Shown here: one piece after another, positions 7,838-10,171 of the stretch
Position numbering within the stretch: the stretch's first letter is position 1
How the letters are laid out: the number at the start of each line of letters is the position of its first letter
Origin: Methanothermobacter sp.
Lineage (GTDB): Archaea; Methanobacteriota; Methanobacteria; Methanobacteriales; Methanothermobacteraceae
Assembly (NCBI RefSeq): GCF_030055435.1
Contig: NZ_JASFYG010000007.1
Coordinates: forward strand, 1 to 64,000
Direction of reading: 5' to 3'
DNA: 64,000 bases
Made by a program: the position numbers and the translations under genes
The notes under the pieces: generated by a model
Seen by the model: only the letters and a program-made list of their open reading frames with translations
Databases searched by the model: none
What the model was told of the DNA's origin: nothing

Positions 7838-8284
7838 TCAGCCAACGACCAGTATTGGAGTTTCTGCAGATTTCAGAATCTTTCGTGTTATGCTTCCGGA
7901 TATTATACGGTCGAGGCCGTGTTTACCTGAGCTGCCCATAACGACTAGGTCAACATCCTCATCCTCCATTGTTTCAAGGATAACTTCTGCAGGGTTGCCC
8001 TCAAGTATCCGGGTATCGAGTTTGCACTCCTTCATTCTACCATTTTCCTGCATTGATGAAAATTCGTCCTTGAGGATGGATATTGCCTTTTCTGACTGTT
8101 TTCTGAGTATCCTTTCAATGCGCCTGCTGATATCCTCATGCCAGACCTTCCTGTAGGATGTGTCAACTACACTTATCCCGAGGATATCTGCACTGCTCAT
8201 CTCTGCAATTCTGAATGCGTGTTCTGTTGCCTTCCTGGCGTCATCTGAGCCATCTGTGGGTATCAGTATTCTGCGGTACACCAT
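7838..8284 (-). CDS. Universal stress protein, UspA family
   Basis: The 148-residue protein has the full Usp fold: RILIPTDGSDDARKATEHAF at the N-terminus and the ATP-binding signature GSSGKHGLDRIISGSITRKI (G-x2-G-x9-G-S) at the C-terminus, ending PILVVG. It is therefore of the ATP-binding class. Its ATG overlaps the TGA of the upstream NYN gene (TGATG), with GGTG just before it, so the two are translationally coupled. The role is presumably in stress or energy-state response; the target is unknown. Confidence 0.93.
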   Translation of the reverse strand: MVYRRILIPTDGSDDARKATEHAFRIAEMSSADILGISVVDTSYRKVWHEDISRRIERILRKQSEKAISILKDEFSSMQENGRMKECKLDTRILEGNPAEVILETMEDEDVDLVVMGSSGKHGLDRIISGSITRKILKSAETPILVVG

Positions 8285-8754
8285 CAGACACCTTCACTTA
8301 TTAGTTTTATGGAGTTATCTGCCGAGTTCTGGAGTGCTATGCTGAACCCTGGCTCTGCACCTATAACAAGGGTTTCCTTTCCCTTCTCCTTTGCTATGTT
8401 TATTAGCGGGAGGAAATCTGCATTTCTTGTCATCAGTGCAACCACATCAATGTGGGGGTTGTGTATGAGTTCAAAGGCCTCCACTGCAAGCTGGACATCC
8501 ACGTCCCCTGCGACTATCGTGGGTGAGAATCCCTGGTTTACAACTGCCTCGATGAGTTTATCTGAGGCGTACTGGTTGAGGAGGACCTTACCTACCCTGA
8601 GGTTTCCCCTGTCAAGCAGGAGGCTCTTAACAAAGTCAAGGTCTGAGCAGAATTCCTTTCTGAGCATGTTTGGGCCATCCACGAGGAGCCCAAGATTCTT
8701 TTTATCTTTCTGGCTGTTATCTATTATCACGAAGTTAACATCATCCATATTCAT
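8284..8754 (-). CDS. NYN-domain protein, TIGR00288-like (predicted RNase fold)
   Basis: The protein has the NYN/LabA PIN-like core: [13 protein letters not shown] near the start (first acidic residue), [10 protein letters not shown] in the middle, and [20 protein letters not shown] followed by GKETLVIG, which supply the remaining acidic residues. Such proteins are predicted metal-dependent RNases. I chose the ATG at 8754 because GAGG lies upstream at the right distance; a GTG at 8766 is the alternative. It matches methanogen proteins known only as TIGR00288. Co-transcription with UspA suggests RNA turnover under stress, which is inference. Confidence 0.78.
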
Positions 8755-8830
8755 TCTTTTCCTCACATCGTTACTTTAACTACAGATTGTATCTAAAACC
8801 TTATATAGTTATTTATGGTGCGGCTGCTAT

Positions 8831-9493
8831 TCATGGCTCTCTGCTTTCCGGCTTCTGATTTTTCAGGGCTGATTCAAGGAATATCTCAAGGTCCCTCCAG
8901 AATCTGTCTCTCCCGATTTCTCTGGCCTCAAGAACCATCCTTGATGTGAGGTCGAGGTTGAGGGAATTTATGGCCAGTGTATGTATGTATATGGATAGCT
9001 CAACCGGGTCGAGGTCACTGCGAATGCTACCGTCTTTCATACCCTCTATGATCGCCTCGACCATGAGCCTCCACATCCCTGTGCGGAGGTCAACTATTTC
9101 CCTTCCATCCTCACTCTCGCTCATCTCAAATCTTTCTGTGCCACTGTAGCAGTATATCCTGAAGTAGTCAGGGTGTTCCTTTGAGAATCTGTAGAGGGCG
9201 TCCAACATGGCCTTCACCTTGCCGTAACCGTCTGTTTCAAGCTCCGAACATTCTGAGTACATCTTGTGGAGTATTCTTACGCCGTAGAGGTTAACGGCGA
9301 AGAAAAGGGCCTCCTTATTTTTGAAGTAGTAGTAGAGGAGTGCCTTGTTGACCTCTGCCCTTTCTGCTATTTCATCCATGGTCACATTGTCGTAGCCCCT
9401 CTCGAAGAATGCCTTCTCAGCAGCCCTTATTATCTGCATCTGTCTTTTCTGCCTTTCACGTTCTCTCCTGGAAGTCGGGGCCATTTGGTTCAC
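8831..9493 (-). CDS. TetR-family transcriptional regulator
   Basis: The N-terminus carries a TetR helix-turn-helix: [20 protein letters not shown], then [20 protein letters not shown], at residues about 21-61. The remaining 150 residues form the all-helical ligand and dimer domain. It is divergent from the MtrA paralogue, and three palindromes at 9562-9612 lie in that gene's promoter. By position and symmetry they are the likely operators. Its own start is 69 bases from the nearest palindrome, so autoregulation is possible. The effector is unknown. A GGTGA ribosome site precedes the ATG. Confidence 0.92.
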
Positions 9494-9550
9494 CTTTTCT
9501 GTATCTGTAGGATATCTGTTCTGTGGCTTTAAAAGGATTTTACCGGAAGA

Positions 9551-9560
9551 TTTATATATT
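9551..9560 (+). promoter_or_regulatory. TATA box of the MtrA-paralogue gene
   Basis: TTTATATATT lies directly upstream of the three palindromes. With archaeal spacing, transcription would start near 9580, inside the middle palindrome, so a bound repressor would block polymerase. Confidence 0.6.
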
Positions 9561-9561
9561 T

Positions 9562-9612
9562 TTAACTACAAGTTAAACTTTAACCAGAAGTTAAAAATTA
9601 ACTGATGGTTAA
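9562..9612. promoter_or_regulatory. Triple palindromic operator, TTAAC-N5-GTTAA x3
   Basis: Three 15-base perfect-arm palindromes occur at 9562-9576, 9580-9594 and 9598-9612. Each reads TTAAC, five variable bases, GTTAA, and the starts are exactly 18 bases apart. They fill the space between the TATA box and the ribosome site AGAGGTG of the downstream gene. The divergent gene is a TetR regulator, so these are most likely its binding sites; the binding itself is inference. Confidence 0.75.
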
Positions 9613-9625
9613 AGAGGTGTTTGTA

Positions 9626-10171
9626 ATGGTTGACAAGAAACCGGTACCCGAGGACTGGCCACACATAGTTGGGGACTATGTGGTTGGTGATGCCGAAAGT
9701 CCGGTTGCGGTTGTCACCCTCGGGTCCCACATGGAAGATGAGCCTGTAAGGGCGGGTGCAGCAATTTCAGGTCCACTGCACACAGAGAACCTTGGAATAG
9801 AGAAGGTCGTTGGTAATGTAATTGCAAACCCCAACCTCAGATTCCTCCTTGTATGCGGTGCAGAGGTCATGGGTCACATCACGGGTCAGACCATTAAGGC
9901 CCTCCATACCAACGGGGTTGATGGAGAAACCGGGAGAATAATCGGGGCCACCGGCGCCATCCCCTACATAGAAAACATGCCTGATGAGGCCATAGAGAGG
10001 TTCAGAAGGCAGGTGGAACTTGTTGATATGGTAGATGTTGAGGATCCCAATGCAATAAGAGAAAGAATAGGGGAGTGTGTGGTGCATGATTCAGGGGCAA
10101 TTGATGAGGAGCCCCTCATTTTAAGACCTTCTGAGGATCTGAATAAAAAGAAACCCGATGAAAACACCTGA
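9626..10171 (+). CDS. Soluble MtrA-like corrinoid protein (methyltransferase subunit A paralogue)
   Basis: It matches the corrinoid-binding domain of MtrA, the subunit of the Na+-pumping methyl-H4MPT:coenzyme M methyltransferase. From the ATG at 9626 the numbering matches MtrA as I recall it, placing the cobalt ligand at His84 in [19 protein letters not shown] and [17 protein letters not shown] are also kept. It stops at 181 residues with a lysine-rich tail and lacks the C-terminal membrane helix, so it should be cytoplasmic. AGAGGTG precedes the chosen start; an ATG at 9605 would overlap the third palindrome. No other mtr gene is nearby. It may be a corrinoid carrier or a regulated accessory of methyl transfer. 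Confidence 0.9.

Follow-up and report, generated by a model that had tools for sequence, protein, structure and literature searches.

What controls a lone gene for a soluble MtrA paralogue in Methanothermobacter, and what is the role of the three evenly spaced palindromes in front of it? The question is raised by a window of 64,000 nucleotides (contig NZ_JASFYG010000007.1), in which this gene, here called mtrA2, stands back to back with a gene of the TetR family. The first-pass annotation read the arrangement as a dedicated repression switch. In all likelihood, the 51-bp array is a triple operator of the divergent TetR, which would block the mtrA2 promoter until a ligand releases the protein. 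The features considered are given below; the promoter elements and the ribosome-binding site were assigned from sequence.

8831..9484, minus strand: tetR, TetR-family regulator of 217 aa from ATG 9484, PF00440 domain, orthologues in 8/8 species
9527..9535, minus strand: inferred TATA-like box of tetR, CTTTTAAAG; TTTAAAA/TTTTAAA in 8/8 species
9550..9557, plus strand: TATA box of the mtrA paralogue, TTTATATA; TTATATA or TTATATG in 8/8 species
9562..9576, no strand: candidate operator site 1, TTAACTACAAGTTAA; pattern match, kept across species
9580..9594, no strand: candidate operator site 2, TTAACCAGAAGTTAA; transcription is predicted to start here
9598..9612, no strand: candidate operator site 3, TTAACTGATGGTTAA; part of the predicted leader
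9578..9614, plus strand: possible leader hairpin from sites 2 and 3, judged by fold z-score, pair counts and energies at 65 °C
9614..9619, plus strand: ribosome-binding site of the mtrA paralogue, GAGGTG, preceding ATG 9626
9626..10171, plus strand: mtrA2, soluble MtrA paralogue of 181 aa, PF04208 (E 6.7e-80), His84 kept, no membrane helix

The palindrome array and its position

The spacer between both genes holds three TTAAC-N5-GTTAA palindromes with start-to-start distances of 18 and 18 bp. The exact register described in the first-pass annotation is thus confirmed at 9562, 9580 and 9598. When the 141-bp spacer was shuffled 20,000 times with its dinucleotides preserved, one match appeared in 46 shuffles and two or three in none. 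The palindromes fill the interval from the TATA box to the ribosome site, as had been claimed: the first base of the array lies 4 bp past the former and the last base 1 bp short of the latter. The sites are also less than two helical turns apart, 18 bp being 1.71 turns, and neighbouring dimers would therefore sit on different faces of the helix. Alternatively, the six half-sites could form two palindromes of the type GTTAA-N3-TTAAC, each with a linker at its centre. Three N5 sites are nevertheless the better reading, since the N3 parse has no role for the first and the last half-site, although both are as invariant as the other four.

In the whole genome of 1,669,713 bases, the exact motif occurs three times, always in the tetR/mtrA2 spacer; about 2 matches anywhere in the genome are expected from simple base composition. 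Ten other sites differ by one mismatch. Six of them are in coding frames, and the remaining four are found before mtd, before an Spt5-like gene, on a ribosome site and between genes. These four were rejected as further operators because they are not repeated in the three nearest species, whose one-mismatch sites were listed in full, and all ten look accidental. The term "dedicated" is borne out in that no exact site exists elsewhere in the genome. The array was not found elsewhere in a scan of genome contigs, a collection that may omit near kin. CtrA is a bacterial response regulator and not a TetR protein. The nearly identical letters of the CtrA box of alphaproteobacteria, TTAAC-N5-GTTAAC (PMC7232146), are taken as coincidence.

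Archaeal transcription usually starts about 24 bp past the centre of the TATA box. By this geometry, the start of mtrA2 is predicted at about 9577-9583. Site 2 would thus coincide with the start and be preceded by site 1, on the side of the TATA box, while site 3 would occupy the leader as far as the ribosome site.

Two side observations concern the tetR half of the spacer. The sequence ATATCTGTTC at 9509-9525, just downstream of the TATA-like box of tetR (minus strand), is kept in 7/8 species and may belong to the leader or the promoter of tetR. The TATA-like boxes of both genes (9527-9557) are arranged back to back with a separation of about 23 bp, which could make the core promoters rivals for TBP and TFB.

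Conservation of the array

The locus was compared in eight Methanothermobacter-type species, the genome studied here included. By the criterion of the first-pass annotation, the switch would be contradicted by close relatives that have both genes but not the palindromes. What was found is the divergent pair with its three palindromes at 18-bp spacing in 8/8 species. The tetR orthologues of the other seven species share 79-97% identity, and those of the soluble mtrA share 78-98% across the genus comparison.

In the oriented alignment of the eight species, all 30 arm bases are invariant (30/30), while 6/9 central bases and 18/33 bases just upstream vary. The two positions flanking the arms are always a pyrimidine and a purine in the aligned species, and the motif is therefore written TTAACY-NNN-RGTTAA. 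The unit proposed by the first-pass annotation stands as far as its exact matches are concerned, but the conserved core has a 6-3-6 structure rather than 5-5-5. The contrast between the arms and the upstream bases gives a Fisher p of 3e-7, to be taken as a guide and not as a strict probability given that the species are related. Measured inside one genus, the conservation figure is inflated by shared ancestry; the flanks did diverge, though. Invariant arms around a drifting centre would be explained by a symmetric, sequence-specific DNA reader that makes no contact with the centre.

A reading at the RNA level has also been considered and appears unlikely. Sites 2 and 3 would form a hairpin before the ribosome site, which would set the stability or translation of the mtrA2 mRNA, alone or on top of TetR. 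The stretch 9578-9640 folds at -16.9 kcal/mol (z -4.9), and 0/200 shuffles are equally stable, but pairing between the sites is inherent in their being DNA palindromes, and at 65 °C the energy is just -5 to -7 kcal/mol. The hairpin forms in 8/8 species with its foot touching the ribosome site, and one pair is A-U in some species and G-C in others, both sides having changed. This covarying pair is a single event, however, whose score is matched by 30/500 shuffles, and the arms are invariant without compensatory change. Moreover, site 1 is equally conserved and precedes the predicted start, so it would stay untranscribed. A search of Rfam gave no match apart from the two tRNAs.

The TetR protein as the probable binder

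The identification of the divergent gene as a TetR regulator is well founded, the TetR_N match (PF00440) having an E-value of 5.5e-20 and a score of 71 bits against a cut-off of 24. The ORF caller placed the start at GTG 9493. Since this codon is inside the AGGTGA ribosome site, ATG 9484 is the more likely start. The predicted monomer (pLDDT 89.4) has the all-helical TetR fold with a C-terminal ligand/dimer domain. Its best solved structural relatives are DarR, HapR-like, FadR-like and KstR2 proteins (E 4e-8); their identity is roughly 16-25%, and neither sequence nor fold points to a particular ligand.

Downstream of tetR are genes for an NYN-domain protein (8284-8766) and a universal stress protein (7838-8284), and the same neighbours are found in G007, the most divergent species (L089). 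A universal stress protein gene is also near several soluble mtrA genes of another genus.

The divergent TetR very probably binds the three palindromes, judging from the genomic context and the protein itself. Its recognition helix, NKALLYYYF, is identical in the aligned orthologues and differs in the aligned distant TetR homologues. These distant homologues of the order (33-47% identity) are beside other genes, at loci without exact palindromes. Methanothermobacter-type genomes encode one or two TetR_N-domain proteins. In the genome studied here, the only other one (L088, G000:C6:45700-49200) adjoins a gene resembling nucleotide-sugar epimerases/dehydratases.

It is rather improbable that a different regulator binds the palindromes. 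Binding by the divergent TetR is itself a prediction, most species have the second TetR_N protein, and a regulator from another HTH family could in principle read such palindromes. Against this, G007 lacks the second protein and keeps all three sites; its sole TetR_N protein is the one facing mtrA2, which favours the divergent TetR over any other TetR. In addition, there is not one species among the eight in which another regulator gene adjoins the array.

Proposed mechanism of the switch

One TetR dimer would occupy each TTAACY-NNN-RGTTAA site. Three adjacent dimers would cover the DNA from just past the TATA box, over the transcription start, to the ribosome site, and would block RNA polymerase at the mtrA2 promoter. 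Binding of a small molecule in the C-terminal domain would release the repressor and switch on mtrA2 alone. MtrA2 would then be a cytoplasmic carrier, loaded with a cobamide and a methyl group, apart from the membrane Mtr complex.

Repression, the mode claimed by the first-pass annotation, is the natural one for an array located between the TATA box and the ribosome site, across the predicted start. Some TetR-family members activate and many are autoregulated, but activation of mtrA2 through the array, or control mainly of tetR itself, is very improbable here: the location of the sites, past the TATA box and over the predicted start, points to blocking of mtrA2. As for tetR, about 27 bp separate its TATA box from the edge of the nearest site, which is about 57 bp upstream of the predicted tetR start, so that direct autorepression is not evident.

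The soluble MtrA paralogue

The annotation of the target as a soluble MtrA paralogue is supported by comparison with the operon MtrA of the same genome. The latter has 238 aa and a C-terminal membrane helix, before which the mtrA2 product ends. Cytoplasmic MtrA homologues were defined as proteins with an MtrA domain, no membrane helix and less than 215 aa, and the mtrA2 product is one of them. The cobalt ligand His84 is present and invariant in the compared set, and the nearest solved structures are 5laa and 8q3v.

A tree of 34 MtrA proteins unites the soluble Methanothermobacter copies in a single clade (100/100), whose branch has a length of 0.94 changes per column. In g10, another genus of the order, the soluble MtrAs cluster with membrane MtrAs from their own family. 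The soluble Methanothermobacter clade has fourteen fixed positions that differ from every other compared MtrA, e.g., L51-H52 for C51-K52. On these sequence grounds, mtrA2 is an old, diverged paralogue and not a recent copy.

The gene stands alone, with the divergent tetR upstream and two tRNA-Ser genes on the opposite strand downstream. Elsewhere in the phylum, the soluble mtrA genes that were examined, including that of a likely Methanothermus genome, have no neighbouring tetR, and the regions before them hold no repeated palindromes except A/T runs. In the g10 genomes (L044-L055), several soluble mtrA genes are followed by a convergent MarR-like gene and not by a TetR gene; these may be under a different regulator. 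A literature search, with many subscription papers beyond its reach, found no report on the regulation of the mtrA2 paralogue. As for function, MtrA2 might be an uncoupled outlet for methyl groups, used only in response to a particular signal: it would pass them from methyl-tetrahydromethanopterin, perhaps with the help of MtrH, to some acceptor that is not the sodium-pumping Mtr complex. At this stage, the proposal is doubtful.

Comparison with known systems

That an archaeal TetR can repress through very few genomic sites is known from FadR of Sulfolobus acidocaldarius, which binds semi-palindromic operators and is relieved by its ligand, acyl-CoA (PMC6449355). FadR differs in targeting a 30-kb lipid cluster as well as its own gene, whereas the TetR facing mtrA2 would have one target gene. 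Its sites are single and take one or two dimers, in contrast to three sites in a fixed 18-bp register. TetR regulators of the QacR type, which bind as a dimer of dimers, likewise place more than one dimer on a promoter (PMC6449355), as is predicted here, but they do so on two overlapping inverted repeats and not on three separate palindromes side by side.

Soluble MtrA homologues of methanogens have been described as cobamide-binding domains of 170-180 aa with His84, and M. marburgensis is listed with one (PMC4915002). The mtrA2 product is alike in its soluble domain and His84; the Methanothermobacter copies are set apart by their own long branch. Group II/III mtrA genes, reported from Methanosarcinales and Methanocellales only, share with mtrA2 the missing membrane helix and the long branches (PMC4632066). 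Assignment of mtrA2 to group II (mtxA), whose members form an operon with mtxX and mtxH (PMC4632066), was rejected because mtrA2 has no such operon and is a single gene between tetR and the tRNA-Ser genes.

Significance for Methanothermobacter

Neither a TetR switch with a divergent target nor a soluble paralogue of MtrA is new in kind. The strict three-site register and the restriction to one genus are unusual, and the locus looks like a repressor switch with a single target, specific to the genus. Among methanogens, Methanothermobacter is used both as a model and in biotechnology, and it possesses an extra soluble MtrA without known function. A repressor with a single target is an entry point to this protein, as the signal that releases TetR would tell when the carrier is needed. 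The tetR/mtrA2 pair makes both this signal and the reaction of MtrA2 testable, and it could provide a tight, native inducible promoter for these thermophiles.
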